Shown here: positions 1 to 15,090 of the stretch, one piece after another | Layout of the letters: every line of letters starts with the position of its first letter | Numbering within the stretch: position 1 is the stretch's first letter | Origin: Bacteroidota bacterium | Lineage (GTDB): Bacteria > Bacteroidota > Bacteroidia > Bacteroidales > Bacteroidaceae | Assembly (NCBI GenBank): GCA_023458215.1 | Contig: JAEXAJ010000087.1 | Span: forward strand, 1-17,738 | Reading direction: 5' to 3' | DNA: 17,738 nucleotides | Made by a program: the position numbers and the translations under genes | The notes under the pieces: model-generated | What the model was told of the DNA's origin: nothing | Database searches by the model: none | Seen by the model: only the letters and a program-made list of their open reading frames with translations

Positions 1-135
1 CTGGAACTTAACTACACGAACCTAAAAACAGCTACGACAATCAGCCTTAACGGCAGTGACGTGAAAGAGACGAAACTGCGATTGTCCAAATTAGTGCGTG
101 AAGTCGATAAATGCATCGCTTTGTTGAACGAATAA
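1..135 (+). CDS. C-terminal 44 residues of a small unidentified protein upstream of zapA (5' truncated)
   Basis: The plus strand is open from base 1 and ends in TAA at 133-135, giving a tail that finishes in CIALLNE. The window edge cuts off the start, so the full length is unknown. The tail is polar and leucine-spaced (LRLSKLVREVDK), compatible with a short helical or coiled-coil protein. Only 6 bases separate its stop from the zapA start, so the two are almost certainly co-transcribed. A small helical partner beside ZapA would fit a divisome role, but that rests on position alone. I do not recognise the family. Confidence 0.7.
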   Translation: MELNYTNLKTATTISLNGSDVKETKLRLSKLVREVDKCIALLNE

Positions 136-141
136 TGATGT

Positions 142-432
142 ATGAACGATAAAATAAAGATAAACCTGCAAATGGCAGGAGCCTCCTACCCTCTCACAAT
201 CAACCGCGAGGACGAGGAAATGGTAAGAGAAGCCGCCAAACAGGTAGATATCAGACTCAATGCGTATAGGGAACATTATCAAAATGTATCTCCGGAGAGA
301 ATTATAGCCATGGTAGCTTATCAATTCTCTTTAGAGAACCTGCAAATGAAGGATCGTAATGATACCGCCCCCTATACCTATAAGATAAAAGAACTGACAG
401 AAGTATTGGAAAACTATTTTAAAGAAGAATAA
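142..432 (+). CDS. zapA: Cell division protein ZapA
   Basis: This encodes 96 aa, the usual ZapA size. The N-terminal part (about residues 3-20, IKINLQMAGASYPLTINRED) matches the beta-strand start of the ZapA fold. It is followed by EEMVREAAKQVD and a long amphipathic helix that ends in the charged C-terminus. ZapA is a cytoplasmic protein that binds FtsZ at midcell and bundles or cross-links protofilaments in the Z-ring. The start ATG at 142 lies 6 bases after the upstream stop, consistent with an operon. The gene is followed by a structured spacer and a strong terminator-like hairpin before rny. The call rests on motif and length recognition. Confidence 0.88.
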   Translation: MNDKIKINLQMAGASYPLTINREDEEMVREAAKQVDIRLNAYREHYQNVSPERIIAMVAYQFSLENLQMKDRNDTAPYTYKIKELTEVLENYFKEE

Positions 433-530
433 GTTACCACATCTTCCCGCTCAGTGGATGAGAGAGATAATTCGCGCACTGTACAAAAGTCAGGTCCTCA
501 CAGGATCAGGCTTTTATGCAGTGCTTTTTT
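433..530 (+). ncRNA. Structured zapA-rny spacer, possible small RNA
   Basis: Two hairpins follow the zapA stop directly. The first spans 441-468 (outer ATCT/AGAT, inner CTCA/TGAG around GTGGA). The second is the long terminator hairpin at 476-524 with a six-T tract. The position after zapA is where several proteobacteria carry 6S RNA (ssrS), and Bacteroidetes have a short 6S variant. I cannot show the typical central bubble here, so this may be only a 3' UTR with a terminator. Confidence 0.25.
476..530 (+). terminator. Rho-independent terminator after zapA
   Basis: A 16-position stem pairs GCACTGTACAAAAGTC (476-491) with GGCTTTTATGCAGTGC (509-524), with a few wobbles and one mismatch. The loop contains a nested TCCT/AGGA stem. 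TTTTTT follows at 525-530. This is a strong intrinsic terminator, suggesting that zapA and rny are separate transcription units or are joined only by read-through. Confidence 0.8.
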
Positions 531-557
531 ATTTATATACTTAAACAAATTAATAGA

Positions 558-2096
558 ATGACAGTAGTTACAATAGTAGTATCCATTGCCTGCTTCATCG
601 TTGGAGGATTTGCTTCGTATATGTTCTTCAAGCACGGCTTGAAGTCCAAATACGACGGCATTCTGAAAGAGGCTGAAACCGAGGCAGAAGTGATTAAAAA
701 GAATAAGTTGCTGGAAGTGAAGGAGAAATTCCTGAACAAGAAAGCCGACTTGGAAAAAGAAGTTGCGATCCGCAATCAAAAGATACAGCAAGCGGAAAAC
801 AAGTTGAAACAGCGTGAATTGGTGTTGAACCAACGCCAAGACGAAATCCAACGCAAGAAGATGGAAGCCGAAGCTGTAAAGGAAAACCTCGAAGCCCAGC
901 TTGTAATCGTAGACAAAAAGAAAGAAGAACTGGACCACCTGCAACGCCAGGAAATCGAGAAATTGGAAGCCATCTCAGGTCTTTCGGCCGAAGAAGCTAA
1001 AGAGCGCATGGTAGAAACCCTGAAAGAAGAAGCCAAGACTCAGGCTCAGTCTTTCATCAACGACATTATGGATGATGCCAAACTGACCGCCAGCAAGGAA
1101 GCCAAACGCATCGTGATACAGTCTATCCAACGTGTAGCTACGGAAACGGCTATCGAGAACTCCGTTACCGTATTCCATATCGAATCGGACGAAATCAAAG
1201 GACGTATCATCGGTCGTGAAGGGCGTAACATCCGTGCTCTTGAAGCGGCTACCGGTGTGGAAATCGTTGTGGACGACACTCCTGAAGCTATCGTGCTCTC
1301 TGCTTTCGACCCCGTTCGCCGTGAAATAGCCCGCTTGGCATTGCACCAGTTGGTTACAGACGGTCGTATTCACCCCGCACGTATCGAGGAAGTAGTTGCC
1401 AAGGTACGCAAGCAGGTCGAAGAAGAGATTATCGAAACCGGTAAACGTACCACCATCGACTTGGGTATCCACGGTCTGCATCCCGAACTGATCCGCATTA
1501 TCGGTAAGATGAAATACCGTTCTTCATACGGCCAAAACCTGTTGCAGCATGCCCGTGAAACTGCCAATCTTTGTGCAGTGATGGCATCGGAACTCGGATT
1601 GAATCCTAAGAAAGCAAAACGTGCAGGTCTGCTGCATGATATCGGTAAAGTGCCCGATGAAGAACCGGAATTGCCGCACGCACTCTATGGTATGAAGCTG
1701 GCTGAGAAGTTCAAAGAGAAACCGGACATTTGCAACGCTATCGGCGCTCACCACGACGAAGTGGAAATGACCAGTTTGCTGGCTCCTATCGTACAGGTAT
1801 GTGACGCCATCTCAGGTGCACGTCCGGGCGCACGCCGTGAAATTGTAGAAGCCTACATCAAGCGTCTGAACGACCTCGAACAATTGGCTATGTCTTATCC
1901 CGGCGTAACGAAAACTTATGCCATCCAGGCAGGACGCGAGTTGCGCGTTATCGTAGGTGCCGACAAGATAGACGACAAGGCAACCGAGAACCTCTCCGGT
2001 GAAATCGCCAAGAAGATTCAGGATGAGATGACTTATCCGGGACAGGTTAAGATCACTGTGATCCGTGAGACTCGCGCAGTGAGCTACGCAAAATAA
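558..2096 (+). CDS. rny: Ribonuclease Y
   Basis: This encodes 512 aa, close to the family's usual size. An N-terminal membrane helix (about residues 3-24, [17 protein letters not shown]) anchors the protein. A long charged coiled coil follows (about 30-190). A KH RNA-binding domain carries the GxxG loop in [19 protein letters not shown] (about 215-235). An HD metal-dependent phosphohydrolase domain contains H331, the HD pair in LLHDIGK (H360/D361), AHHDE (398-401) and D416. RNase Y is an endoribonuclease that starts mRNA decay at the inner membrane. An in-frame start at 516 exists, but it would fall inside the preceding terminator stem and put a charged extension before the membrane helix, so ATG 558 was chosen. 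A terminator follows the gene. Confidence 0.95.
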
Positions 2097-2109
2097 AAAT
2101 AGAGAATTA

Positions 2110-2152
2110 AATAACGAAAGGGCGGATTACTATTCGCCCTTTCGTTATTTTT
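2110..2152 (+). terminator. Rho-independent terminator after rny
   Basis: A perfect 15-bp stem pairs AATAACGAAAGGGCG (2110-2124) with CGCCCTTTCGTTATT (2135-2149) around a 10-base loop, followed by TTT. It starts 13 bases after the rny stop. Confidence 0.88.
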
Positions 2153-2153
2153 G
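2146..2153 (+). promoter_or_regulatory. Candidate cutC promoter, -7 box TATTTTTG
   Basis: TATTTTTG matches the Bacteroides -7 consensus TAnnTTTG and lies 25 bases before the cutC ATG. It overlaps the 3' arm and T-tract of the rny terminator. No convincing TTTG -33 element is visible upstream, because that region is the terminator stem and loop. Confidence 0.4.
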
Positions 2154-2178
2154 CAAAGCTGATAACATAATCAATAAT

Positions 2179-2931
2179 ATGAAAAATTATCAATTTGAAG
2201 TCTGTGCCAACTCCGTAGAGAGTTGTCTGGCAGCACAAGCCGGAGGAGCCAACCGGGTAGAACTGTGTGCGGGTGTTCCCGAAGGGGGCACCACCCCATC
2301 TTACGGCGATATTAGCGTGGCACGTGGAGTACTGACCAGCACAAAGTTGCACGTCATCATCCGTCCGCGAGGCGGTGATTTCTTGTACTCCTATATTGAG
2401 CAACGCATCATGCTGAAAGATATAGATAATGCCCGCCAACTCGAAGCAGACGGAGTGGTTTTCGGATGCCTTACGGCAGAAGGAGATGTTGATATTCCAC
2501 TTATGAAACAACTGATGGAGGTTGCACAAGGCATGTCTGTTACTTTCCACCGAGCTTTTGATGTATGCCGCAATCCACAGCAGGCATTGGAGGATATTAT
2601 CAATTTAGGGTGCGACCGGATACTCACTTCCGGACAAATGCCTACAGCAGAACAAGGCATTCCTTTATTGAAAGAGCTACAACAACAAGCGGCAGGACGT
2701 ATCACCCTACTTGCAGGCTGTGGTGTGAATGAGAATAATATAGCCCATATCGCCCAAGAAACAGGCATACATGAGTTTCATTTCTCAGCAAGAAAAGACA
2801 TTGAAAGTGGTATGACCTATCACAACAAAGCCGTTTCTATGGGAGGGACGGTACATATTGACGAGTACAAGCGCTCTGTAACTACAACGGAACGAGTTGC
2901 AAAAACAATAAACTCATTAAAACAATACTAA
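2179..2931 (+). CDS. cutC: CutC family protein (copper homeostasis annotation)
   Basis: This encodes 250 aa, the normal CutC length. The N-terminus carries the family signature FEVCANSVESCLAAQAGGANR followed by VELCAGVPEGGTTPS. VIIRPRGGDF, VTFHRAFDVC, RILTSGQ and LLAGCGVNENN follow in the expected order for a TIM-barrel CutC protein. CutC is cytoplasmic. The family was named for copper tolerance in E. coli, but its biochemical function is disputed, so the copper role should be treated as annotation only. The gene has its own candidate promoter after the rny terminator and converges on the minus-strand gene ending at 3095, with a palindromic repeat between them. No neighbouring gene supports a metal role. 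Confidence 0.92.
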   Translation: MKNYQFEVCANSVESCLAAQAGGANRVELCAGVPEGGTTPSYGDISVARGVLTSTKLHVIIRPRGGDFLYSYIEQRIMLKDIDNARQLEADGVVFGCLTAEGDVDIPLMKQLMEVAQGMSVTFHRAFDVCRNPQQALEDIINLGCDRILTSGQMPTAEQGIPLLKELQQQAAGRITLLAGCGVNENNIAHIAQETGIHEFHFSARKDIESGMTYHNKAVSMGGTVHIDEYKRSVTTTERVAKTINSLKQY

Positions 2932-2982
2932 TTCTGTAAATCATAACCACTCAAATCTTACGGTTTCCGATAATCAGTACTA

Positions 2983-3065
2983 TTTGTCATCCTGAGCTTG
3001 TCGAAGGATCTCCTCCCTTTCATATATTGAGAAGAGATGCTTCGACTACGCTCAGCATGACAAAA
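2983..3065. repeat. Interspersed palindromic repeat (GTCATCCTGAGC type)
   Basis: The two arms, at 2983-3012 and about 3034-3065, are near-perfect reverse complements. Each contains GTCATsCTGAGC, GTCGAAG and ATCTC, with small differences in the middle. The spacer is about 21 bases. I recall very similar GTCATCCTGAGC...TCGAAGGATCT sequences scattered between genes in many Bacteroidetes genomes. It sits between two convergent genes, where it could also work as a bidirectional transcript end. Confidence 0.75.
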
Positions 3066-3094
3066 GTTACTCTGCTATTTCAACTAATCGCTGT

Positions 3095-5761
3095 TCATAA
3101 TCCTTTTATCGTCTTCATCAATTGCTCTCCCAAACCAATCGTATATCCTTGTGAAACGAAAACTACGCGATTGAAGGTATCGGCAATAATGAATATAGGC
3201 AGACTATCTTTATTCTTCAGTTTCATGCTTTCAGCTATCTGACCGGATATGTTATCCGTATCTATACCATATACAATAGTAGATGGTAAATCAGGGAACG
3301 CAGTTCTAACAAACTTCCCTGCTTGAACCTCATCCGGGAAAAGCAGCACCATCTTCCTGCCCCACTTCTCTAAATCGGCTTTGAATGCTGCAATATCACG
3401 CAGTGCATGATTGGTTGGCTCCTGATTAACTCCCAAGACCCCTACAACAAAATACCCGCGGCCGCAAGCTTGCAACAAGCTTTGTGGATCAGAGAGCGTA
3501 CCATTATCCTGTAGCGGAGTAAAAATAGATTCAGAATTGAAATTTCCAATTACCTGAACTTCATCTTTACTTTGACGCATCACCAAATCAATATGAGTTG
3601 TCTTACCCGGCTCTATGCTGAAATACGTAGCTTTTGAAAGCACTGCACCACTTGCCATACGAGTTCCTGTAACCAGCATATAGTCTCCTGCATATAACAT
3701 AGTGCCATACTTTAGTAAATTGCTCCAAGTAGTACCGGCACCCATATCGGTATCTTCCTCATCATAAGCCAGTAAGTGCAAATTACCCTGCGGCGTAATT
3801 TGAGAGAGGGTGAAGTGAGAATAATATTTCGGGTTATCCAGTATGTTGGTCGGTGTATATTTAGCAATAAGTTTGCCTTTCTGAACAGTAGTTGGCGCGG
3901 CTTCCTCAAAATTCACATCTATCAGCCTCTCATCTCCTATTAATTGCACTTTACCGGTCACCTCGTCAATACGGGCAGGAATGCCCATACTGCGTGCCAT
4001 GGCAACGAAGAAAATATCACGACTATGAGCATCTGCCATACGCGCTCTCCATACTCCTTCCGGCGAAACAGGAGCTCCGCCCAAATTACAGTCTTTCTCC
4101 AAACGAATATTCTCCTTTACCCACGCAACGAGTTTCATCGGATCTGCCACATAAACCTCAGCCTCATTTTTCGGAATCACTTTACCGAAGAAGGACTTAT
4201 AAGGAGTCAGCATTTCATTACTTATACGTGGATTACGCACATATTTACGGAAGTAGTCGGCTTTCGTTTTCAAAGGGGACAACATGTGATCTATCAATAC
4301 CTCCAGACTAACATCACGAAGATCTTTTGCTGAGATCTGTTGCAAAAGGTCTATTCCCCCTCTTTTTGATTTCTCTGAACGCAGACGCGCCATAAAATTG
4401 CGGATAACCTCGTGATTGCCACGAGAGGCCACTAAAATCTTAGCAACAGCATCTTCGTCCAGTTTATAGTCTTTTGCAAAATTACGTGCCGATTCTTCTA
4501 TCATGAATGTACTCACGTAGGCATTACGTATTGAATCTTCATGCGCCAAACGCTGATCGTTTCGGGCGCGTTGCTCAGGAGTAACATTGGGTACATTCGC
4601 ACTTTCTGCAGGAGGCACGATATCGAAGTCTATAGAATAGTTCTCACCCGCCTTCTTATCCAGTTTCACGGTCAGCTCATTGTCCTTACCAAAGGAGAGC
4701 TTGGCATACCCGAACTTTCCGTCTTTAGATGCCCATACCAGCATATCGCCTTTTCCGGCAGTCAGGGTACAGTTGCCGGAAGCATCAGTCTGCTTTTTAG
4801 CAACCGTATAGAATTCAGCATAATTGTAAAGTTTGAACTCTACGCAGGCATCGGCAACCGGATTGCCTTGTTCATCTGTTACCGTTACAGATGCCTTGGC
4901 AGTGGGTGCATAATTTTCGATTACATTGATTTCAGTATAATTAGGGGTAACGGACATTATTTCTTCCGCACCTTCATATCGACCGAAAACCTTGGTATGC
5001 ATCAACATTCCCCGACTGGCAGGTGCATTGAACCATCCCAAGTTTAACACAGGTTCCGGCTCGCAAGCTCCCAGAAAATACCACTTACCATCTGCCCAGG
5101 CTTCCACCCACGCATGATTATCATCAGTATGTGCCCAGCGAGGGGTATATACTTGCCTCGCCGGAATACCTACCGAACGAAGAGCGGCAACCAACAAAGT
5201 AGATTCTTCACCACATCGCCCGTAAGCCGTACGTACCGTTGCCATAGGCGAACTGGTTCGTGAATCGGAAGGCATATAAACAGCTTTCTCATGACACCAA
5301 TGGTTCACTTCAAGAATAGCATCATAGAGAGAAAGCGATTTGACACGATCTTTCAGTTCCTTGTAGAATACAATCCTCGCACTATCCAATTGTTCATTGT
5401 TTACCCGCTCCGGAAGTACAAAATGTCGGAATACTTCTTCGGGAATTTTATCTCCCCAAGACATTTCTGCCGCCGCCTGCTGCGAAGCCCGTATATTCAT
5501 TAAGTGAAACTCTCCGGAATAATCAGTTATATCAGCCAAAGGCATATAGGCGTACAGAAACTCTAACGCCTCGCGTTCATACGAAGTCAGTTCCGCATCG
5601 AATATAGCAAACAAATCGCTCTGGGCGATCAACGCCTTTTTCTGCTGAAAATCTTGCTCTACGCGTTCGCGATAAGAAGCATCTGTCATGAAATGGGATT
5701 CACCGCAAGCGGTCAGTAAAAACAGTAAAACGGTTCCTAAAAATAATGCAATTTGTTTCAT
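3095..5761 (-). CDS. Transglutaminase-like lipoprotein with a degenerate second repeat and thioredoxin-like C-terminus
   Basis: This encodes 888 aa. The lipoprotein signal MKQIALFLGTVLLFLLTAC predicts lipidation at C19. A transglutaminase-like core spans about residues 165-240: C183 in GRCGEES, IPARQVYTP, and H216 in DNHAWVEAW. The usual acidic third residue falls near GACEPEP, where E234 could substitute. An Ig-like or carboxypeptidase-regulatory-like beta domain follows (about 285-370, VTVTDEQGNPVADACVEF). Around 555-620 a second region resembles the transglutaminase core (MARSMGIPAR), but the aligned cysteine position is A578. The C-terminal ~110 residues look thioredoxin- or peroxiredoxin-like (KMVLLFPDE, LPIFIIADTFNRVVFVSQGY) without a CxxC. 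It is last in the LytTR/TonB/DUF2141 block, 52 bases after DUF2141. Substrate is unknown; a peptidase or protein-modifying role at the cell surface is inferred. Confidence 0.8.
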   Translation of the reverse strand: MKQIALFLGTVLLFLLTACGESHFMTDASYRERVEQDFQQKKALIAQSDLFAIFDAELTSYEREALEFLYAYMPLADITDYSGEFHLMNIRASQQAAAEMSWGDKIPEEVFRHFVLPERVNNEQLDSARIVFYKELKDRVKSLSLYDAILEVNHWCHEKAVYMPSDSRTSSPMATVRTAYGRCGEESTLLVAALRSVGIPARQVYTPRWAHTDDNHAWVEAWADGKWYFLGACEPEPVLNLGWFNAPASRGMLMHTKVFGRYEGAEEIMSVTPNYTEINVIENYAPTAKASVTVTDEQGNPVADACVEFKLYNYAEFYTVAKKQTDASGNCTLTAGKGDMLVWASKDGKFGYAKLSFGKDNELTVKLDKKAGENYSIDFDIVPPAESANVPNVTPEQRARNDQRLAHEDSIRNAYVSTFMIEESARNFAKDYKLDEDAVAKILVASRGNHEVIRNFMARLRSEKSKRGGIDLLQQISAKDLRDVSLEVLIDHMLSPLKTKADYFRKYVRNPRISNEMLTPYKSFFGKVIPKNEAEVYVADPMKLVAWVKENIRLEKDCNLGGAPVSPEGVWRARMADAHSRDIFFVAMARSMGIPARIDEVTGKVQLIGDERLIDVNFEEAAPTTVQKGKLIAKYTPTNILDNPKYYSHFTLSQITPQGNLHLLAYDEEDTDMGAGTTWSNLLKYGTMLYAGDYMLVTGTRMASGAVLSKATYFSIEPGKTTHIDLVMRQSKDEVQVIGNFNSESIFTPLQDNGTLSDPQSLLQACGRGYFVVGVLGVNQEPTNHALRDIAAFKADLEKWGRKMVLLFPDEVQAGKFVRTAFPDLPSTIVYGIDTDNISGQIAESMKLKNKDSLPIFIIADTFNRVVFVSQGYTIGLGEQLMKTIKGL

Positions 5762-5813
5762 AATGTAGTCTATCTAAGGTACAGACCACAAAATTAAAGA
5801 ATTATTTAAGAAT

Positions 5814-6227
5814 CTATTTCAAATGTATCACCAAAGTCATATCTTCAGTAAAAGAAAAATGGCATTTATCAAAAGATGGTGCCCCCATCACCCCTTCGGC
5901 ATCATTACTAAAACCGAATTTCTCTGTAGGAATACCGAAAGCGCCGGTATCCAGCTTCCCGTTTCCATTCTCATCCTGATAAAGAGAAACAGCATACGTA
6001 CCGGCAGGCAATCCCTTACAAGGCATCGAAAGTACTTTATCCTTCACCTCAACCCTGAAACCTGCCAGCGGCTTCTTCATAAACGTCTCTTGCGAGTTAT
6101 AGATAGCTACATAGAGATAACCTTCCGTTTTCTCAATATCACGCACTTCAATAGTTAAGTTCTGTGCAAACAGCAGTTGTACTGCACCTTGCAATACAAA
6201 TACTAAAAAGATAATCATTGCTTTCAT
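5814..6227 (-). CDS. DUF2141 secreted protein
   Basis: This encodes 137 aa. A signal peptide (about residues 1-21, ending LLFAQ) precedes a short beta-rich domain. The domain carries features I associate with DUF2141: GYLYVAIYNSQETF near the start, the LPAGTYAVSLYQDENGNGKLD block (about 73-93), and FGIPTEKFGFSNDA followed by the FDKCHFSF strand. The DENGNGKLD stretch resembles a calcium-binding loop. The protein is predicted to be periplasmic or surface-exposed. It sits 63 bases downstream of the TonB receptor and upstream of the transglutaminase-like lipoprotein on the same strand, so one transcript is likely. The molecular function of DUF2141 is not established as far as I know. Confidence 0.85.
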   Translation of the reverse strand: MKAMIIFLVFVLQGAVQLLFAQNLTIEVRDIEKTEGYLYVAIYNSQETFMKKPLAGFRVEVKDKVLSMPCKGLPAGTYAVSLYQDENGNGKLDTGAFGIPTEKFGFSNDAEGVMGAPSFDKCHFSFTEDMTLVIHLK

Positions 6228-6268
6228 TTTCGTTGTTTTTTTAAAGTTAATATTAAGAGTTTCCTCCC

Positions 6269-6282
6269 TCCCCTTCAGGGGA
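6269..6282. other. Small intercistronic hairpin between TonB receptor and DUF2141 genes
   Basis: TCCCC (6269-6273) pairs with GGGGA (6278-6282) around a TTCA loop, just after the receptor stop at 6291. There is no adjacent T-tract in the minus direction, so it looks more like an mRNA processing or stability element than a terminator. Confidence 0.3.
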
Positions 6283-6290
6283 ATGAGGGG

Positions 6291-8216
6291 TTAGAAATTG
6301 GAAACATCGTATGCAGCCTTCTTACCAAGGGTAATGTAAACTCCTATGTAGAAGAAATGGTCGCTGGATGCCAGTATAACTTTGTCGTCCACCTTCCCGA
6401 ATTCATTCTTCCTACATAAGATATTGGTAGCGGAAGTGTGAATAATCACCTTCTTACTAACCAAATAAGTGAGGCCCAAATCCAAACTATTATAAGGCTT
6501 CACTTCATCGTTCATCAAACCCGGTAATGCGGGGTTATGAAAAGGACGACCACTACTGAAACGATTGGTTACACTGATAATAGTATGTAAACTTGGCAAA
6601 GAGTATTTTACTACCAAAGCTGCATTATGCCGGGTGGCATACTGAGGAGTAGTCACTTCCGTATACTCCTGATATTTACGCCTGGATATATTATAGGTAT
6701 AAGAAAGCTGGTATTCCAGATTCTTAAGCAAAGCCCGGTCACGGAAGAAGAGGTCGATACCCTTGCTATGCCCATATCCGTCAGATGTCAGGCAAATAGG
6801 TTCAGGAGCGGTATTCTCCTCTGTCAATGCCAATCGATCATAATTCTTATAATAGAATTCGGCATTATAGAATCGTCCCTCATTACCGTACTGGATACCC
6901 AAATTATATTGCAAACAGGCTTCGGACTTCAAATCAGGTTGGCGAACCAAATACTTATTCTCCGGTAATTGCGTATAACGCCCGATGGTTCCCGAAAACA
7001 TAATATCCCCCCAATGATAATTCAATGCTAACCGCGGTGAGAAATTCACTTTCCGGTTCAGTGACGTATATTCCGTACGAAAAGAAAGTTCGGCTTTCAG
7101 TTGTTCTATAGGATAATATGTAGCCGAGAAGAAAACCGCACTAACCGTAGGCGACATGCGATTACTATCATCAACTTCGGAAAGCAGATAGTGATTCTTG
7201 TAAGAACGTATATAGCTCTCCAGCCCCATATCCAAACGAAAAGTCGATGACAAGCGTTTAAAAACTTTTGTTTTCAGATGTAACTCTTGTTGACGTTCCA
7301 ACCAATCGTCGCTTGCCATAACGGCACCGTTTATTTTCTGCTCATTAAATGAAATGGCCGCACCCGCAAACCAATTCCACTCTCCCGACATACGACGGCG
7401 AAATGTTGTATTGATATATATATTATCTTCACCCAAGCCAAATAATCTACGGTCCTCTCCTTCATAAGTCGAAAGGTCGGTGCGATCATATTGAGCATAA
7501 ATCTTAAAGGCAGTAGCCTCATCAGGCGTATACCGAAACTGGGTAGCTCCTGAAAACATCCGGTATGGTTTTGAGAATTCTTTCCGACCGGAATAAATCT
7601 TATCATATAATCCCAAGTTCTGATAGTTCAAATCCACCGACAAAGACCCCTTGTCAAAAACGTGAGTTCCTCCTCCTCCTATACCGACAACCGAAGCATT
7701 CACTCCTATTTTGTTTACCCGGCTATAATCTTTTGTCTCCAAAGGAAGTACAGCCGAAAGTGCTTCTCCGTATTCTTGCGAGGCACCACCGGAAGCCAAA
7801 TTCACTCCGCTGAACATAAAAGTCGAATAACGGCTTCGAGCCGGCGTATTGATGCCATTTGATGTATAAGGATTCAATACATGCATGCCATCTATATAGG
7901 TCTGCGTTTCACTGCTACTACCTCCGCGCACCAGCAATTCGCCGGTTTCACCTTGTACTTGCGTACCGGGTAATGTTTGCAATGCTTTGTATAAATCACC
8001 GTTTGCACCACCCACCGTAACCAGTTCCACCGGACGCATATCACTCCAACGACTGTTTGCAGCAGGTGTCTTTCGTCCTTTCACTACAACTTCGTCCAAA
8101 CCGATACTATCTATATTGAACTGAAGATGTATCGTATCAGTTAATGCCTTTTGTGCCATGGATGGATGCACAAAAAATAAAATACTTAAAGCTAAAAGAA
8201 TTATTTTCCGTTTCAT
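6291..8216 (-). CDS. TonB-dependent outer-membrane receptor
   Basis: This encodes 641 aa. An in-frame start 14 codons upstream exists, but ATG 8216 begins a clean signal peptide (MKRKIILLALSILFFVHPSMAQ). The mature N-terminus goes directly into a DEVVVKGRK segment and a plug domain (about residues 45-150) with LPGTQVQGETGELLVRGG and TYIDGMHVLNPYT. The rest is a beta-barrel rich in alternating aromatic and polar strands, ending LGKKAAYDVSNF. It lacks the N-terminal carboxypeptidase-like domain of SusC proteins and no SusD partner follows, so a glycan-utilisation pair is unlikely. It would import a ligand using TonB/ExbBD energy. The ligand is unknown. It is probably expressed with DUF2141 and the lipoprotein downstream. 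Confidence 0.9.
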   Translation of the reverse strand: MKRKIILLALSILFFVHPSMAQKALTDTIHLQFNIDSIGLDEVVVKGRKTPAANSRWSDMRPVELVTVGGANGDLYKALQTLPGTQVQGETGELLVRGGSSSETQTYIDGMHVLNPYTSNGINTPARSRYSTFMFSGVNLASGGASQEYGEALSAVLPLETKDYSRVNKIGVNASVVGIGGGGTHVFDKGSLSVDLNYQNLGLYDKIYSGRKEFSKPYRMFSGATQFRYTPDEATAFKIYAQYDRTDLSTYEGEDRRLFGLGEDNIYINTTFRRRMSGEWNWFAGAAISFNEQKINGAVMASDDWLERQQELHLKTKVFKRLSSTFRLDMGLESYIRSYKNHYLLSEVDDSNRMSPTVSAVFFSATYYPIEQLKAELSFRTEYTSLNRKVNFSPRLALNYHWGDIMFSGTIGRYTQLPENKYLVRQPDLKSEACLQYNLGIQYGNEGRFYNAEFYYKNYDRLALTEENTAPEPICLTSDGYGHSKGIDLFFRDRALLKNLEYQLSYTYNISRRKYQEYTEVTTPQYATRHNAALVVKYSLPSLHTIISVTNRFSSGRPFHNPALPGLMNDEVKPYNSLDLGLTYLVSKKVIIHTSATNILCRKNEFGKVDDKVILASSDHFFYIGVYITLGKKAAYDVSNF

Positions 8217-8255
8217 ATCTCTATGTTTTTTGCGTGCAATCTGCTTTCGCTGTTG

Positions 8256-8283
8256 CAAACATAGAGGAAGAATTCAGAGCAAA
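8256..8283 (-). promoter_or_regulatory. Candidate promoter of the TonB receptor operon
   Basis: On the minus strand TATGTTTG (8263-8256) matches the Bacteroides -7 consensus TAnnTTTG. A TTTG (8283-8280) 16 bases upstream fits the -33 box, slightly closer than usual. The predicted transcript would start near 8249, leaving a leader of about 33 bases before ATG 8216. Confidence 0.55.
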
Positions 8284-8312
8284 AAAATATCCGGGACAGA
8301 CAACCCGGATAT
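8281..8312 (-). terminator. Rho-independent terminator after the LytTR gene
   Basis: Read on the minus strand, ATATCCGGG pairs with CCCGGATAT (9 bp; 8312-8304 with 8295-8287) around an 8-base loop. Seven T residues follow (8287-8281), overlapping the last stem base. It separates the regulator transcript from the receptor operon promoter just downstream. Confidence 0.75.
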
Positions 8313-8365
8313 GTGACAAGCAGCACTCGCCCTGTGACGAATGACGTATTTCTGTGACGAATGAC
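8312..8365 (-). promoter_or_regulatory. Phased direct repeats, candidate LytTR operator
   Basis: CTGTGACGAATGAC occurs twice exactly (8332-8345 and 8352-8365), and a shorter third copy of the core TGTGAC lies at 8312. The three cores start at 8312, 8333 and 8353, a spacing of 21 and 20 bp, close to two helical turns. LytTR proteins bind direct repeats spaced by about two turns. The array lies about 65-115 bases upstream of the predicted receptor transcription start, a plausible activator position, and directly after the regulator's stop codon. Confidence 0.5.
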
Positions 8366-9264
8366 TAGCTTTCTACTGCATTCTCTATCAACGTTTTCAC
8401 CTCTTTGGCATAAGCTCTGGAAACCGGAACTTCTTCTTCGCAACCTTCCAACCGCAAACGATATCCCTGTGAGTTTCCATCTACTTTCACCACCTTTCGG
8501 ACACTCACCAAAAAGGCTCGATGGCAACGAATGATATAAGAGCAATCGGCTACCGCTTCTTCCGCCTGCTTCATCGTAACCCGCAATAATTTCTGAACGA
8601 TCTTTCCATCCTTGTCAGAATAGCAAGTCACCTTTACATAATTCCCCTCTGCTTCTGCATAAAGAAAATTATCAGCATTTACTTCCAGTACTTCTTTCGT
8701 CCCTCCTGAAAAGATTAAAACTTTCGGGCAGTCCTCTTCCGAAAATGAAATATTGTCCTCGGCCACCATCTTTTTCGAAAGAAAGAAATTCATTTCCGTC
8801 GCCTCTTTCAGGTTACGGGTTAACAACAAGTTCCGGTTCCACATCAAAAAGATGGTCGCAGGGAAAGGCGCCAATATCGCCACCCATAACATACAAACCA
8901 AAAACAAATACCAACTTAGCTCCAAATCATATAACCAAGAAGTATACAGCCAATTACCAACAGCTATCAATACACAATTCATTAATATATTAAGTAACTG
9001 CTTGCCTAACGTCCATCCTTGTTCCTTATAATAATTCGGAAAAAGGACAGGTAATACATAAACAAAGACTCCCAATGCCACGCCGGTTACCACCCCATAT
9101 CCCAATAAAATAAACAGTTTGTGTGCGTTATGCATTTGAGCAATTCCAAATGGTTGCAACAAATAAATAATCAGAAAAACGATAACCGAAGGTATTAATA
9201 CCGTCTTCCACCGTTGACAAAGGGCGGGATAAGGACTATGCAAAAGCTCTGTCAGTTTATTCAT
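8365..9264 (-). CDS. Membrane-anchored LytTR-family transcriptional regulator
   Basis: This encodes 299 aa. Four hydrophobic segments (about residues 21-42, 50-75, 88-108, 117-142) form an N-terminal membrane domain. A short linker follows, then a C-terminal LytTR DNA-binding domain (about 190-297) with FLYAEAEGNYVKV, IIRCHRAFLVSVRKVV and VPVSRAYAKEVK. There is no receiver domain, so it is not a standard two-component response regulator. The membrane segment may itself sense a signal or recruit the protein to the envelope. It has its own -7 box upstream and a terminator after its stop. The phased repeats and the TonB receptor operon directly downstream make it the likely regulator of that operon, by inference. 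Confidence 0.88.
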   Translation of the reverse strand: MNKLTELLHSPYPALCQRWKTVLIPSVIVFLIIYLLQPFGIAQMHNAHKLFILLGYGVVTGVALGVFVYVLPVLFPNYYKEQGWTLGKQLLNILMNCVLIAVGNWLYTSWLYDLELSWYLFLVCMLWVAILAPFPATIFLMWNRNLLLTRNLKEATEMNFFLSKKMVAEDNISFSEEDCPKVLIFSGGTKEVLEVNADNFLYAEAEGNYVKVTCYSDKDGKIVQKLLRVTMKQAEEAVADCSYIIRCHRAFLVSVRKVVKVDGNSQGYRLRLEGCEEEVPVSRAYAKEVKTLIENAVES

Positions 9265-9296
9265 TTTCGTTATATGTATGATATCGTAGATTATTG

Positions 9297-9304
9297 CAAA
9301 GATA
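9297..9304 (-). promoter_or_regulatory. Candidate promoter of the LytTR gene, -7 box TATCTTTG
   Basis: On the minus strand TATCTTTG matches TAnnTTTG exactly, 32 bases before the ATG at 9264. No well-spaced TTTG -33 box is evident; the nearest (9335-9332) is too far. Confidence 0.5.
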
Positions 9305-9412
9305 TGTAATATATTTGTAATATACAGATTGCAAAATCACGTATTTAGGATAAAAGTATAGAGTAATATGCATATTTTTATGTTATAAAACATATTTCTC
9401 ATAAACAATTCG

Positions 9413-9420
9413 TATCTTTG
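9413..9420 (+). promoter_or_regulatory. Candidate promoter of the 46-aa gene, -7 box TATCTTTG
   Basis: TATCTTTG followed by CAGTGTTAA is a perfect -7 match. A 16-base block (9414-9429) is repeated identically on the minus strand at 15066-15051, in front of the HU-like gene. A six-bp inverted repeat TATGTT/AACATA (9379-9394) lies just upstream. The divergent LytTR promoter is about 110 bases away. Confidence 0.55.
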
Positions 9421-9457
9421 CAGTGTTAATAGAGAAAACAATAAAGATGTAAAACCA

Positions 9458-9478
9458 GCTTTCCGAAACGCGGAGGGC
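9458..9478 (+). other. Hairpin in the 5' leader of the 46-aa gene
   Basis: GCTTTCCG (9458-9465) pairs with CGGAGGGC (9471-9478), including two wobbles, around AAACG. It ties up a GGAGGG sequence, the only Shine-Dalgarno-like motif in the leader. The A-rich run AAAAAACTAG follows. The shape recalls small riboswitch leaders, but the pseudoknot partner needed for a preQ1-I type fold is not seen. Confidence 0.3.
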
Positions 9479-9494
9479 AAAAAACTAGACGATT

Positions 9495-9635
9495 ATGAAA
9501 AAGAATGAAAATGAAATTATGATGTTACAGTACCGTATCAAACGCTATCAAGCAATGGGAAACGGAACTATGTGCCAGACCTTGAATGGCAAACTGCAAA
9601 AACTGCTTGCAAAGCAGTCTCAAATTACCATGTAA
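9495..9635 (+). CDS. Small basic protein of unknown function (46 aa)
   Basis: ATG 9495 to TAA 9633-9635 encodes 46 aa beginning MKKNENEIMMLQYRIKRYQ and ending LLAKQSQITM. It is predicted to be helical, basic and without a signal peptide or membrane segment. Support for a real gene comes from context: a -7 box and structured leader lie upstream, and a strong terminator lies 25 bases after the stop. The leader from the predicted start is about 65 bases. I do not recognise a domain. A small RNA carrying a short ORF is an alternative. Confidence 0.6.
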   Translation: MKKNENEIMMLQYRIKRYQAMGNGTMCQTLNGKLQKLLAKQSQITM

Positions 9636-9659
9636 ACAACACCTTTAAATAAAATGAAT

Positions 9660-9697
9660 AAGGGCGGAAGGCTGAAAAGTCTCCCGCCCTTTTCTTT
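9660..9697 (+). terminator. Terminator between the 46-aa gene and the convergent Fpg-like gene
   Basis: AAGGGCGGAAGGCT (9660-9673) pairs with AGTCTCCCGCCCTT (9678-9691), with wobbles, around GAAA. TTCTTT follows. In the reverse direction the same stem ends the Fpg-like gene, whose stop is at 9702, although the T-run on that side is poorer. Confidence 0.85.
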
Positions 9698-9701
9698 ATA
9701 T

Positions 9702-10535
9702 TCATTCCCCTATCTTCTGGCATTGCGGACAATAATAAACCGATCCTCCCAAATACGCCTCTTTCGCAATCACTCCTCCACAGCAGGGACAAGGATTTTT
9801 CCAGGTTTTGGCAGAAAGAATAGTTTTGTATCCGCCATAATTACCATAAAGGTCGGGCTGTGTATCACGGCCACCTTCAAAGGTCATTTCCATTAAAGTA
9901 TCCTTCAACGAGCCAAAAAGAATTTCTTTTTGGGAATCCGGTAGCTTCAGTACTTTCTGTTTCGGATGAATGCGAGCATTGAACAAAATATCCTGGGTTA
10001 CTCCGTTGCCTACTCCCGGAATACGTTGTTCGGTGGCAAGCAAGGCTTTGGCAGTCAAAGTATTTTTAGCTTCAATAAAGAGCTTTTCAAATTGTTTCTC
10101 CGTATAGTCTTCACTTAGAGGAGAGATACTATCACGACTTATTTTATAATACTTATTATCAATGACATCATTTAGATAAACATTGATAAAGCCATACATG
10201 GCAACTGTAAAAACAAGAAACGATTCATCAGCGAAAGTGAGCAATAGCTGATAGTTAGCCGGGACTTTATCACCCGAATTATAATAACGGACAATAACTC
10301 CATCACCTATATTCATCGTCACATTATCAGAAAGATAAAAATCAACAAACATACCATATCCTTTGGATGATAAGATAGTCTTACCAACCAATAACTTACC
10401 ATATCCTAACGGATCACTATTGTAAAACGTAAACTTATGCGGTTTGGTAGCATTGAACACTTGTGTAATCGTCTTTCCAGCCAAAACATGATTAATCTGT
10501 TTACTCAGTGTGAGAACTTCAGGCAACTCTAACAT
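9702..10535 (-). CDS. Fpg/Nei-family protein lacking the catalytic N-terminal proline
   Basis: This encodes 277 aa, the length of formamidopyrimidine-DNA glycosylase or endonuclease VIII. The fold markers are present: the ELPEV start, a lysine in SSKGYG (K58, at the Fpg K57 position), a helix-two-turn-helix region (about 160-191, KALLATEQRIPGVGNGVTQDIL), and a zinc finger with C249, C252, C269 and C272. The N-terminus is M-L-E-L-P-E rather than M-P-E-L-P-E, so the nucleophilic proline is absent, and the DNA-contacting arginine of the finger is replaced (GGSVYYC). Active Fpg/Nei chemistry is therefore doubtful; damage binding or a different reaction is possible. I recall proteins starting MIELPE in other bacteria, so this is probably a conserved subfamily. 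It lies 9 bases after the AraC-type gene, in one operon. Confidence 0.82.
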   Translation of the reverse strand: MLELPEVLTLSKQINHVLAGKTITQVFNATKPHKFTFYNSDPLGYGKLLVGKTILSSKGYGMFVDFYLSDNVTMNIGDGVIVRYYNSGDKVPANYQLLLTFADESFLVFTVAMYGFINVYLNDVIDNKYYKISRDSISPLSEDYTEKQFEKLFIEAKNTLTAKALLATEQRIPGVGNGVTQDILFNARIHPKQKVLKLPDSQKEILFGSLKDTLMEMTFEGGRDTQPDLYGNYGGYKTILSAKTWKNPCPCCGGVIAKEAYLGGSVYYCPQCQKIGE

Positions 10536-10544
10536 AATATTCTT

Positions 10545-11684
10545 TTATTTTTGATTATCAATTGGGATATAGATTTCTGTCAATAATTCATCAATAGCCG
10601 TCCCACTTGGGGTATTGCAATATACTTCAAACGTTAACGGCTGCTTCTGATAATATCCACTTCTTGGAAACCATTTCTCATAAATCATTTTATAAAAGTC
10701 GGGCAACTCTGCGTAACTTCCCTTATAACTAAAGACTGCGTACATACCACCGGGGATTTCTTGTATAGAAAACCTGCCTTTATGACTCAGCTCATCAACC
10801 GGCATTATTCCGATATAAAATCTAGATTGGTCTATCGGTGTTATGAATGGATTATCCAAACTGATACTTACAAAATGGTTCTTTGCATCCTGCTTCAGAT
10901 ACTTTTCTTTATAAGAAACCAGTTCCTTCCAAATATTGGTATAAGCACGTTTGCTATGAAAAGTATTACCTACTTCCAAACAAATCACCTTTTGAGTATT
11001 GATGCGTTTTATCTTCGGCACAGGCAGACTATCAGATATGGATTGAATCTCTATGGATTTATATTTCGCCCGATAATCGGACATAGAAAGCCCGAAATGC
11101 TTCTTAAAAGCTTTTGCCAAACTGAATTTAGTTTGGTAGTTAGTCTGTTCGCGTATTTTTTCAATAGATTGCCCTGTAACAATAAGCAAATGGGCTATAT
11201 ATTCCAGACGCAAGCGCTGAATATAGGTACCAACGTTTTCTCCGGTAACGTTCTTGAAAACTTTTCTAAAATGATAGAACGACAAATTAACCATTTCGGC
11301 TAGTTGTTCGGGAGTAAGATCTAAAAAAAGATTCTTATTGATATAAGCCTTTACTCGGTCGATGGCTGCATGGTGTACACTTTGCGTATCCTCCATCTGA
11401 CGCCAACGTCTGAGAGTCGGTAACCGTTTATTCAAGAGCACCCTTAATTCTTGCGGAGTATAATTCGTACCCGAATACCAATTATATTTATCTGTGTATT
11501 TCACCCAAATATCAACCATGTCATTCATGGAAATATCAACTATATACTCTCCGTTTTTCAGGCAATAATAACAATACTCATCACTACGGGAGTGATCAGC
11601 ATTCGTTCCCATATATTCCTCAATGTCGAAACGAAGAGGCATTCCACAACTTTGGCAATATTGTTTATCTACTATCTGATCCAT
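10545..11684 (-). CDS. Zinc-ribbon / AraC HTH / GyrI-like fusion transcriptional regulator
   Basis: This encodes 379 aa in three parts. Residues 1-95 form a putative zinc ribbon with C10, C13, C38 and C41 (QYCQSCGMPL, YCYYCLKNG). Residues about 105-206 are an AraC-type double helix-turn-helix (LTPEQLAEMVNLSFYHFRKVF, then TKFSLAKAFKKHFGLSMSDYR). Residues about 225-376 resemble a GyrI/Rob-type effector-binding domain (YIGIMPVDE, IPGGMYAVFSYKGSY, PLTFEVYCN). Rob- and BmrR-like effector domains bind small hydrophobic or cationic compounds, so drug or stress sensing is plausible. The downstream Fpg-like gene is 9 bases away and probably its target or partner. The start is fixed by the need for C10 and by the lack of an earlier sensible start. 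Confidence 0.85.
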   Translation of the reverse strand: MDQIVDKQYCQSCGMPLRFDIEEYMGTNADHSRSDEYCYYCLKNGEYIVDISMNDMVDIWVKYTDKYNWYSGTNYTPQELRVLLNKRLPTLRRWRQMEDTQSVHHAAIDRVKAYINKNLFLDLTPEQLAEMVNLSFYHFRKVFKNVTGENVGTYIQRLRLEYIAHLLIVTGQSIEKIREQTNYQTKFSLAKAFKKHFGLSMSDYRAKYKSIEIQSISDSLPVPKIKRINTQKVICLEVGNTFHSKRAYTNIWKELVSYKEKYLKQDAKNHFVSISLDNPFITPIDQSRFYIGIMPVDELSHKGRFSIQEIPGGMYAVFSYKGSYAELPDFYKMIYEKWFPRSGYYQKQPLTFEVYCNTPSGTAIDELLTEIYIPIDNQK

Positions 11685-11688
11685 TCCA

Positions 11689-11696
11689 CAAAAATA
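11689..11696 (-). promoter_or_regulatory. Candidate promoter of the AraC-type regulator, -7 box TATTTTTG
   Basis: On the minus strand TATTTTTG matches TAnnTTTG and ends only 4 bases before the ATG at 11684. If used, transcription would begin at or next to the start codon, giving a leaderless or nearly leaderless mRNA. Confidence 0.4.
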
Positions 11697-11697
11697 C

Positions 11698-11735
11698 GAT
11701 GCCTATCTCAGATTTAGTTATCCGAAATAGGCATC
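11698..11735. promoter_or_regulatory. 14-bp inverted repeat next to the AraC-type gene promoter
   Basis: GATGCCTATCTCAG (11698-11711) and CCGAAATAGGCATC (11722-11735) are reverse complements with two mismatches, separated by 10 bases. The element abuts the upstream edge of the -7 box and covers the -33 region. It could be an operator for the regulator or a terminator for the AT-rich cluster that reads toward it. Confidence 0.45.
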
Positions 11736-11784
11736 TTTATAGTTTCCTCAATAATAATATGAATTATTGGGTAAAAAGGGAAGG

Positions 11785-12061
11785 TTAGATTTTATAAAGC
11801 CTTGCTTTTTTGAAAAGCTGATAAATTAATAATTCATAATATATTTCACTATAAACATCATGATTAGATGATAGCCTCCTTTTTATATCTTCATACTCCT
11901 CTTTTGGATAATCATTGAACTATAAATTGAATTGCATTCTATCTTTTATAAAATTTGCATCTTTAATCCTTTCTTTTTATAATATTGAGCAATAACTTCC
12001 ACTCTTGTTCAATAATTTCCATTCCCCTTTAAACTGACATATTCAAAGCATCATTTTTCAT
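11785..12061 (-). pseudogene. Decayed short gene downstream of the membrane-protein pair
   Basis: Starting from ATG 12061 (MKNDALNMSV), one reading path keeps protein-like sequence to TAA 11785-11787. It needs two in-frame stops to be ignored and one frameshift. The pieces are RGMEIIEQEWKLLLNIIKRK, then after the shift RIKDANFIKDRMQFNL, then a tail with FNDYPKEEYEDIKRRL, NHDVYSEIYYELLIYQ and LFKKARLYKI. The span of 277 bases is 92 codons plus one base, as expected for a single indel. It begins 10 bases after the stop of the preceding membrane gene, so it was probably the last gene of that operon. The product looks soluble and helical. I do not recognise it. Confidence 0.5.
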
Positions 12062-12071
12062 AATAGTTATT

Positions 12072-12551
12072 TTAAAAGCAAATTATATCATTTTTCTTAA
12101 TTATAATTCGCTTAATGATTTCAGATCTAATTTTTAACAACTTTTTTATTCTAAAACATGTTAAGATAAATTCAAAACTTCGCTTTTTTATTTTATTTTT
12201 ATCAAAGACTAATAAGCCACTTTTCAATATAGGAAGAGCATTATCAAGTGCCAAATAAGCCAATATGCCTCTTAAAAAAATATCCAATAATCCATATTCT
12301 ATAATAGTAGTATTAAGAATACAAACATCATTATACACTATAAAAATAGCGCAAAGTAAGTAAAAAGAAGCATTTGTAATGCATGAAAAATCCTTATCAG
12401 AGATTATTTCATTTTTTGACATTGAAAAAATATTAACACATATAAATTTAACAATATTACCTCCCAATAATTTAACAAACAGAAATACAGCTAATAAAAC
12501 CAGATACACATAAACTTGAGATAAAAGAAAACATACTACCATCAGTATCAT
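12072..12551 (-). CDS. Small membrane protein of unknown function (159 aa)
   Basis: ATG 12551 overlaps the TGA of the upstream gene (ATGA), a classical translational coupling arrangement. The protein has several hydrophobic stretches (about residues 1-30, 60-80 and 85-105) and a very basic C-terminal tail (FRIKKLLKIRSEIIKRIIIKK), so it is probably a multi-pass inner-membrane protein with a cytoplasmic tail. The region is much richer in A+T than its surroundings, and an open frame of this length is notable in such DNA. I recognise no family. A bacteriocin-, transport- or immunity-related role would be guesswork. Confidence 0.5.
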   Translation of the reverse strand: MILMVVCFLLSQVYVYLVLLAVFLFVKLLGGNIVKFICVNIFSMSKNEIISDKDFSCITNASFYLLCAIFIVYNDVCILNTTIIEYGLLDIFLRGILAYLALDNALPILKSGLLVFDKNKIKKRSFEFILTCFRIKKLLKIRSEIIKRIIIKKNDIICF

Positions 12552-12859
12552 AACAATAAAAATAAAAAATATGCAATAGATATTATTGTCACTATTTCTG
12601 GTAATATAATTTTCACTAATAAAATAGGTAATTCAGCAATAGCTACACAAATACTATGATTACCAAAAACAATTGTAATCCCTATCACACATGTTAGATA
12701 GAGAAGTAAATAATTTCCCCATGGATAAAAAAAGATAAATGCTTTCTGTATCGGTTCTTTAGAAAAATAAAAAGATAATATAGTCATCGCAAAAAATGGG
12801 ATAAATCCCATTACAATATGTTTTCTCTTAGCTTTTATATTATATATCAATTGATTCAT
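12548..12859 (-). CDS. Small membrane protein of unknown function (103 aa)
   Basis: ATG 12859 begins MNQLIYNIKAKRKHIVMGF. A GTG 24 bases upstream is an alternative start but would overlap the preceding open frame, whose TAA (12861-12863) lies one base before this ATG. After a basic N-terminus come three hydrophobic segments (about residues 15-33, 40-60 and 70-103), so it is predicted to be an inner-membrane protein. It overlaps the next gene by four bases. Its base composition is strongly AT-rich like that of its partner. No family is recognised. Confidence 0.5.
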   Translation of the reverse strand: MNQLIYNIKAKRKHIVMGFIPFFAMTILSFYFSKEPIQKAFIFFYPWGNYLLLYLTCVIGITIVFGNHSICVAIAELPILLVKIILPEIVTIISIAYFLFLLL

Positions 12860-12860
12860 A

Positions 12861-13013
12861 TTATTCTTTGTTAAGAATGTCACGAAAAGACATTAATGGC
12901 AAAATAAAATATAAATTATGAGAATCAAACAATGAATTTTCAATTTTTACAAAAAACGACTTAAAAAAGAATAGTAGAACATTTACAATACAAACTATCT
13001 TATAATTTTCAAT
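12861..13013 (-). pseudogene. Open frame without a normal start, upstream of the membrane-protein pair
   Basis: Fifty codons are open and end in TAA one base before the next gene's ATG, with protein-like ends (SFFVKIENSLFDSH, LYFILPLMSFRDILNKE). There is no ATG before codon 41, and in-frame stops lie upstream (13014-13016 and 13059-13061). This looks like the 3' end of a truncated or frameshifted gene that headed the same operon. It may also be a chance open frame in AT-rich DNA. Confidence 0.35.
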
Positions 13014-13248
13014 TTATAAGCATACTTCTTTGCTACCTATTTTTTTAACACTTGACGTTTATTCAATATTAGGCATATTTTTCTCTTTATTCCATAAAAA
13101 CTCAAATAAACTTTTGGCAGGTACAATAGATTTTCTCGTATTTGCATATATCATAACTCTTAAAATAAAACACTTTATTTCTATGTTTATTAGCTTGATA
13201 TTCATAGTGGCAAATTTGCAATCTAAATCCAAAATTATTAAATGAAAG
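13006..13248 (+). other. AT-rich stretch with an open membrane-like frame on the plus strand
   Basis: The plus strand is open from 13006 to a TGA at about 13246 with no ATG near the start (TTG 13030 is possible). It encodes three hydrophobic segments, beginning LLPIFLTLDVYSILGIFF and continuing KLLAGTIDFLVFAYIITL. The pattern loosely recalls the C-terminal part of MauE/DoxX-type membrane proteins. An antisense frame is also open over 13059-13259. Either could be a gene remnant or chance. From 13249 to 13331 I see nothing further. Confidence 0.2.
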
Positions 13249-13331
13249 ACTCTCTTCATAAAAAAACTAATATATAAATGAAGTCAAGCTATCCAATCGT
13301 TGGAAAATCAAGTTCAACTCCAAAATGAGAA

Positions 13332-14192: not shown

Positions 14193-14213
14193 TCAATTCA
14201 TTTTTTGAGTTTA

Positions 14214-14258
14214 CAAAGGTCGGAGAAAATATCCTATCCTCCTATCCCTATTTTTAGG
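14214..14258 (-). promoter_or_regulatory. Esterase promoter region with TATCC repeats
   Basis: The minus-strand GACCTTTG (14221-14214) differs from TAnnTTTG by one base and lies 22 bases before the start. Directly upstream are three copies of TATCC on the plus strand (14230, 14235, 14243) and a small CCTA/TAGG dyad (14247-14258), possibly a regulator site. Confidence 0.35.
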
Positions 14259-14280
14259 TATAATAGCATACTATATACAA

Positions 14281-14319
14281 GAAAATCCTTGAGCCTCTTT
14301 ATTAAGTTCAAGGATTTTC
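14281..14319 (-). terminator. Terminator-like inverted repeat after the HU/smalltalk genes
   Basis: A perfect 12-bp inverted repeat, GAAAATCCTTGA (14281-14292) and TCAAGGATTTTC (14308-14319), surrounds a 15-base loop. The T-run after it is short on either strand, but it is placed about 70 bases after the smalltalk stop. Confidence 0.6.
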
Positions 14320-14389
14320 CTTATCATACTCATTTAGTAATAAGTCTATCACTTATTTCCTAGAGTTAGTCCACTCATCATTTAACCAT

Positions 14390-14485: not shown

Positions 14486-14507
14486 AATTTAATTATTCAT
14501 TAATCCA

Positions 14508-14999: not shown

Positions 15000-15059
15000 A
15001 ATTCTACATTTTTAAAATTAATTACTTAGTTAATAATCTCTTTGTCAACGTTAACACTG

Positions 15060-15067
15060 CAAAGATG
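15060..15067 (-). promoter_or_regulatory. Candidate promoter of the HU-like gene, -7 box CATCTTTG
   Basis: On the minus strand CATCTTTG followed by CAGTGTTAA differs from TAnnTTTG by one base. It lies 60 bases before ATG 14999. Sixteen bases here are identical to the promoter at 9414-9429. Confidence 0.5.
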
Positions 15068-15090
15068 GGGCAACTCGTAAAAAGATGAAA

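Follow-up and report, generated by a model that had tools for sequence, protein, structure and literature searches.

The contig JAEXAJ010000087.1 of a Bacteroidota bacterium, analyzed here over positions 1 to 17,738 (the window), carries on its minus strand four genes in the order lytTR, a TonB-dependent transporter or receptor (TBDT) gene, a DUF2141 gene, and a transglutaminase lipoprotein gene. A previous inspection of the letters by a model (the sequence-only reading) had put these genes in this order, place, and strand, with which our open reading frame (ORF) and Pfam analyses agree, and had proposed that they form a single LytTR-controlled operon. We find in addition an array of four half-sites and a promoter in the gap between lytTR and the TBDT gene, a -7 element before lytTR, and a further -7 element before the transglutaminase gene, and the locus is best read as three transcription units: lytTR, TBDT-DUF2141, and the transglutaminase lipoprotein gene.

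The lytTR gene (8365..9264, minus strand) encodes a 299-residue protein with a C-terminal LytTR domain at residues 192-293, which matches PF04397 with an E value of 8.8e-14 and 51.9 bits against a curated cut-off of 22.6. Hydropathy of the window protein gives hydrophobic segments at about residues 23-41, 50-68, 90-108, and 120-138, joined by short loops; the count of four rests on this protein, and an automatic count over the other entries gave overlapping peaks. Predicted transmembrane helices and a DNA-binding domain are thus combined in one polypeptide with neither receiver nor kinase, as in transmembrane one-component regulators, and the membrane LytTR regulator without a receiver domain described in the sequence-only reading is borne out. 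The gene has its own -7 element, TATCTTTG (9297..9304, minus strand), 40 nt ahead of the ATG, and a match to the rule used for such elements, TAnnTTTG, is present within 120 nt ahead of lytTR in 35 of 48 loci (shuffle rate 9%). Further upstream, a conserved 46-residue ORF on the plus strand (9495-9635), divergent from lytTR, has matches in 48 loci, some of which are the same place counted twice, and is found upstream of lytTR in 18 of the 19 other four-gene loci.

Four direct half-sites follow lytTR on the minus strand. The first, ATTCGTCACA (8353..8362), lies directly after the lytTR stop codon (8367-8365) and recurs as the identical half-site 2, ATTCGTCACA (8333..8342), 20 bp past it; half-site 3, GCTTGTCACA (8312..8321), comes 21 bp past the second, and half-site 4, GTCTGTCCCG (8292..8301), another 20 bp past the third. 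The -7 element of the TBDT promoter, TATGTTTG (8256..8263, minus strand), lies 34 nt from the first base of the GTCCC core in half-site 4; an alternative TTG start at 8258 in the ORF list overlaps this element (8263-8256).

This arrangement recurs among 61 long lytTR loci, the window included, which are related by descent, so that counts across them are not independent. Using RTCMC as the rule for a half-site core, we counted cores in 56 of the 61, with L130, L194, L198 (a short contig), L200, and L206 dropped where the downstream stretch is interrupted or the target missing. Within 150 nt downstream of lytTR there are 196 cores against 38 expected from dinucleotide shuffles, and 13 cores in the opposite orientation. 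Four cores are present in 38 loci, five in three, three in seven, two in three, one in two, and none in three. Neighboring cores are 20 bp (86 cases), 21 bp (33), 30-31 bp (10), or 40-41 bp (4) apart, all of them whole helical turns, with 10 other spacings. Regular chains reach four sites in 40 of the 61 loci and three in 3 more, and in 38 of these 43 loci TAnnTTTG lies exactly 34 nt after the last core. When 39 distant loci, otherwise analyzed apart, were pooled with the long ones (100 rows, or 92 after removal of 8 near-identical ones) and the 60 loci with the element were anchored on it, cores were found at -34 in 47 of 60, at -54 in 40 of 60, at -75/-74 in 25 plus 16 of 60, and at -95/-94 in 17 plus 14 of 54, with fewer than five at any other position; most of this signal comes from the 61 long loci. 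The array stands ahead of whichever gene comes first, TBDT-DUF2141 in 35 loci and DUF2141-TBDT in 7 (the four-site array being complete in four of the seven), and none of the 35 TBDT-DUF2141 gaps contains a -7 element.

The half-sites are closely tied to this position. A strict two-site pattern, scanned in 20 hand-picked genomes of which 19 were picked for having lytTR, gave 22 matches: 21 fall in the lytTR-TBDT gap, the remaining one lies within a predicted ORF of genome G807, and the reversed pattern matched once. Divergent transmembrane LytTR genes in three loci (L223, L224, and L225) have a comparable promoter: their last three cores follow each other at 20 bp, and the final core is 34, 34, and 35 nt ahead of the -7 element, while an additional core lies 12 bp upstream and the outer part of the array differs. 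These loci hold a second type of transmembrane LytTR gene, divergent from genes for a protein of about 257 residues and for what is, by eye, a likely TBDT. The LytTR control that the sequence-only reading extended to the whole set is strongly supported by inference for TBDT-DUF2141, with the direct-repeat array in front, and is not supported for the transglutaminase gene.

A terminator-like hairpin, ATATCCGGG..CCCGGATAT with a run of T (8287..8312, minus strand; -14.4 kcal/mol, z -3.7), overlaps the promoter-proximal end of the array, such that the CCCG of half-site 4 lies inside the 3' arm of the stem. Hairpins of -8 kcal/mol or better cover half-site 4 in 27 of the 43 loci with at least three chained sites, and the other 16 keep the array only. 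At L205 a stem of different sequence surrounds the same half-site, with z of -4.4 by simple shuffles and -1.7 by dinucleotide shuffles. The simplest reading is that the hairpin probably ends the lytTR transcript, and a regulatory role is possible.

The regulator is present in 58 of 149 genomes sampled from the genus of B. stercorirosoris and in 59 of 393 genomes of the order (E 1e-25 or better), and at E 1e-20 in 49 of 349 genomes of the family. The genes downstream in the 61 long loci are TBDT-DUF2141-transglutaminase in 20, TBDT-DUF2141 in 15, DUF2141-TBDT in 7, a TBDT without DUF2141 in 9, and others in 10. Among the 49 loci, including the window, whose LytTR protein is at least 40% identical, a hand count finds both TBDT and DUF2141 downstream in 42 and at least one of them in 48, and the gene arrangement is therefore not due to chance. 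The four-gene label changes 4 times on the LytTR tree against a shuffled mean of 17.0, with none of 500 shuffles as low. The sequence-only reading had offered conservation of all four genes in relatives as one test; the LytTR regulator, SusD-less TBDT, and DUF2141 protein are indeed kept together in much of the genus, and the transglutaminase gene is often apart. In more distant loci (L119, L213, L215, L216, L126-L129, and L222) a family of about 200 residues, c9, takes the place of DUF2141 after the TBDT. Two distant LytTR genes, at L155 and L125, are directly followed by a DUF2141 gene, so that the association of DUF2141 with these regulators may be an old one.

The TBDT gene (6291..8216, minus strand, ATG at 8216) encodes 641 residues with a plug (PF07715, E 1.3e-6) and a barrel (PF00593, E 1.1e-14), both above cut-off. 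None of the nine window proteins scanned matches a SusD family, consistent with the SusD-less receptor of the sequence-only reading and in contrast to SusCD-type pairs, where a SusD lipoprotein is adjacent. The structure model has a fair barrel and a poor plug (mean pLDDT 68). All 50 Foldseek matches listed are TonB-dependent transporters, OprC first. Small TBDTs such as OprC, Cir, FepA, and BtuB resemble the receptor in having a plug and barrel of about 640 residues and no SusD, but identity is 10-15% and TM-scores are about 0.5 among the listed matches, and with so poor a model of the plug such a match does not reveal the ligand. Metal or cobalamin uptake, at which the nearby cutC gene and the OprC and BtuB folds hint, was not adopted because TBDT folds are alike, the TM-scores are only about 0.5, many loci lacking the LytTR-TBDT-DUF2141 trio also have cutC next to the transglutaminase gene, and an Rfam scan of the window gave no match, riboswitches included. 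The peptide or protein ligand suggested by the sequence-only reading likewise finds no support. The DUF2141 gene (5814..6227, minus strand) encodes 137 residues (E 4.3e-33) with an N-terminal hydrophobic signal-like stretch, and is modelled confidently as a beta-sandwich (pLDDT 90). A loop, D-x-N-x-N-G-x-L-D, is conserved in its alignment and presumably resembles calcium loops. A fold search with this protein gave no match at E 0.001 or better, and we therefore claim only a beta-sandwich; when the TBDT and DUF2141 alignments were run as profiles against solved structures, nothing passed the thresholds used.

From these data we consider it likely that the locus encodes a self-contained membrane LytTR switch, comprising the regulator, its four-site array, and an activated TBDT-DUF2141 promoter, with the transglutaminase gene standing apart. 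Anchored in the inner membrane through four helices, the regulator would sense something in or at the envelope, the signal entering through this membrane part, and its LytTR domain would bind the four direct half-sites, probably as two pairs. Given that the last half-site keeps a constant distance of 34 nt to the -7 element downstream of it, the bound protein would be expected to activate the TBDT-DUF2141 promoter. The lytTR gene itself would be transcribed from its own -7 element with no array in front (none of the 61 loci has a chain of two or more half-sites within 250 nt ahead of lytTR), its transcript probably ending at the hairpin whose 3' arm is half-site 4. TBDT and DUF2141, presumably made together, would provide the outer membrane with an importer and a secreted beta-sandwich protein as its partner, the two acting jointly on a ligand, and the transglutaminase lipoprotein would be a separate and more widespread resident of the site with a promoter of its own.

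Several observations weigh against this interpretation, in addition to the shared descent of the loci. The RTCMC rule finds no site in 7 of the 61 loci, one site in 5, and a chain of two in 6; some of these are interrupted contigs, and L126, L127, and L129 have, by eye, a shorter CGTC form. Thirty-two of the 92 de-duplicated loci lack the TAnnTTTG anchor, and the three-base core RTC is also common at -38 and -47, where it comes from the hairpin sequence. Chains of at least three sites occur in only 7 of the 39 distant loci, with two sites in 8 and one or none in 24, and in none of the 12 loci with an adjacent nitronate monooxygenase-like gene; the array is clear in Bacteroides and mostly absent from distant relatives. 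A looser three-site pattern scanned in the 149 genomes gave 50 matches (12 for the reversed control), of which 27 are in the gap, 3 at other transmembrane LytTR genes, and 20 elsewhere, so that array-type sites may have further targets. Six of the 20 matches elsewhere were opened and showed no LytTR match, five lying in predicted ORFs and one, in genome G002, mostly between ORFs. Lastly, it is position, and position only, that points to activation over repression.

The transglutaminase gene bears most directly on the one-operon proposal. It encodes (3095..5761, minus strand) an 888-residue protein with a lipobox-like LTAC and a transglutaminase core (PF01841, E 1.9e-24); of the Cys-His-Asp triad of transglutaminase-like enzymes, Cys183 and His216 are invariant in all 34 aligned proteins, and what we take to be the usual Asp position reads L-G-A-C-E. 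Two points would suit one LytTR-controlled operon of all four genes that binds, processes, and imports a ligand: 20 of the 61 long loci have this order and group together on the LytTR tree, and transcription may run on from TBDT-DUF2141 into the transglutaminase gene. We nevertheless regard such an operon as improbable. The transglutaminase gene is preceded in the window by the -7 element TAATTTTG (5789..5796, minus strand), and the element is found 29-37 nt ahead of its start in all 20 distinct four-gene loci (21 rows, with L002 and L187 being one contig). Among 77 transglutaminase rows without the trio (L114, a copy of L001, was left out), 42 have the element 25-75 nt ahead of the start (shuffle 3%), although starts in distant rows are approximate. 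The gene is present in 117 of the 149 genus genomes, compared to 58 for lytTR, and in some lytTR genomes, such as G807 and G853, it is far from lytTR. A scan with the lipoprotein confirmed at least 590 stretches; the trio lies upstream in 2 of the best 80 loci kept, some of which have short upstream DNA. In 10 of the 77 loci lacking the trio (upstream DNA exceeds 1 kb in 72 of the 77), the 46-residue ORF is found upstream of the transglutaminase gene, within 500 nt in 8, and thus marks the same chromosomal site, whereas at L117, L205, and L221 the trio is beside cutC or rny and the transglutaminase gene is absent. The trio and the transglutaminase gene, each occurring here without the other, were thus gained or lost separately at one site. 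Within the window, the terminator-like hairpin and the promoter also part lytTR from the TBDT gene. The four-gene operon was dropped as the principal interpretation on this promoter, distribution, and empty-site evidence, and with it the transglutaminase as a dedicated processing enzyme; it is probably a bystander with its own promoter, outside the LytTR unit.

Two further explanations concern the repeats themselves. They could serve another regulator, with LytTR a mere neighbor, and their apparent lack in many distant LytTR relatives is consistent with this; but 21 of the 22 strict matches in 20 genomes adjoin these lytTR genes, and of the 23 looser-scan matches outside the gap 3 lie next to a different transmembrane LytTR gene. 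AgrA-type LytTR sites are direct repeats about 21 bp apart. The repeats here have this known LytTR site form, and repeats of similar period are given in the available text of PMC6193735; we find another regulator very unlikely. The repeats and hairpin might instead act as RNA, in an attenuator-like leader governing read-through from lytTR into the TBDT gene. In favor of this, the hairpin extends over half-site 4 and reaches -8 kcal/mol or better in 27 of the 43 chained-site loci, and L205 has a different stem at the same half-site, although its dinucleotide z is just -1.7. Yet 16 of these 43 loci keep the array without a strong hairpin, the array ends ahead of the -7 element and has spacings that track the DNA helix (20, 21, 30, and 31 bp), the divergent lytTR genes have a similar promoter-proximal geometry, and Rfam finds nothing in the window; we find an RNA leader very unlikely.

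We found no description of this arrangement among the papers listed by the literature searches, from which subscription papers and preprints were excluded, in line with the sequence-only reading, to which no description of the combination was known. No separate membrane inhibitor gene, the companion of the regulator in LytTR Regulatory Systems (LRS), is conserved beside lytTR; a gene that we take to be YccF-like lies upstream of lytTR in 15 loci, at least 442 nt away, and is absent from the window. LRS, in the available text of PMC6193735, have direct repeats with a period of about 20-22 bp near the promoter, and Bacteroides 'LRS-like' regulators with transmembrane segments are mentioned there, so that the locus shares with them a LytTR regulator, promoter-near direct repeats, and, with the Bacteroides proteins, transmembrane segments. 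As far as that text goes, however, LRS include a membrane inhibitor encoded by its own gene and are autoregulated, neither of which is seen at lytTR, and they have two repeats of other sequence rather than four. We therefore rejected membership of the LRS, there being no cognate inhibitor gene and no repeats upstream of the regulator's own operon. HigX of Caulobacter (PMC13384398) is a LytTR factor with four transmembrane segments and no apparent periplasmic domain, which its authors call suggestive of a 'fused LRS', and the fusion of four transmembrane helices to a LytTR domain is as in lytTR here. It differs in its link to a toxin-antitoxin locus and to the SOS response, and the available portion of that paper describes neither a four-site array after the stop codon nor a TBDT-DUF2141 unit. 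The transmembrane transcription regulators of PMC10269533 are, like lytTR, membrane-bound one-component DNA-binding regulators; they constitute a broad functional class, and no such operator or target is described in the part of the paper available.

The literature found has little on how membrane LytTR proteins without a receiver domain reach the genes they control. The locus offers a candidate operator, a promoter whose geometry is fixed, and a single target next to it, and does so across many species of the genus. With operator, promoter, and target so defined, signal, binding, and output could be tested with one reporter, and an array next to a transmembrane LytTR gene is a signature that could be scanned for when assigning targets to Bacteroides regulators. 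We suggest, tentatively and with considerable doubt, that the Bacteroidales may have a family of portable envelope switches, in which a four-helix membrane LytTR protein is combined with a promoter array of half-sites, spaced by about 20-21 bp and in constant register to a -7 element. Its targets might include TBDT-DUF2141, TBDTs with other partners, a membrane protein and TBDT facing the second transmembrane LytTR type, and perhaps others. If so, the half-site nearest the promoter would double, across much of the Bacteroides branch, as an arm of the lytTR terminator, and regulator output and operator occupancy would share one DNA element. Wide generality of the array was not borne out (chains of at least three in 7 of 39 distant loci), and the 0 of 12 beside nitronate monooxygenase-like genes leaves such a switch as only a possibility.

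Next to distant LytTR relatives across the order, the following gene is nitronate monooxygenase-like in 12 of 31 scanned (L144-L146, L148, L149, L151-L153, and L156-L159) and a hydrolase in 2, and TTTCGYCCCTAAA-like repeats can be seen by eye in some of the gaps. Past the lipoprotein gene in the window, on the plus strand, are two genes that we take to be rny and zapA and a CutC-like gene, the last matching PRK11572 with an E value of 4.6e-76 but under the PRK11572 cut-off. On the other side of lytTR, a minus-strand gene (10545-11684) encodes a 379-residue protein combining Zn_ribbon_2, an AraC-type helix-turn-helix, and a GyrI-like ligand-binding domain.

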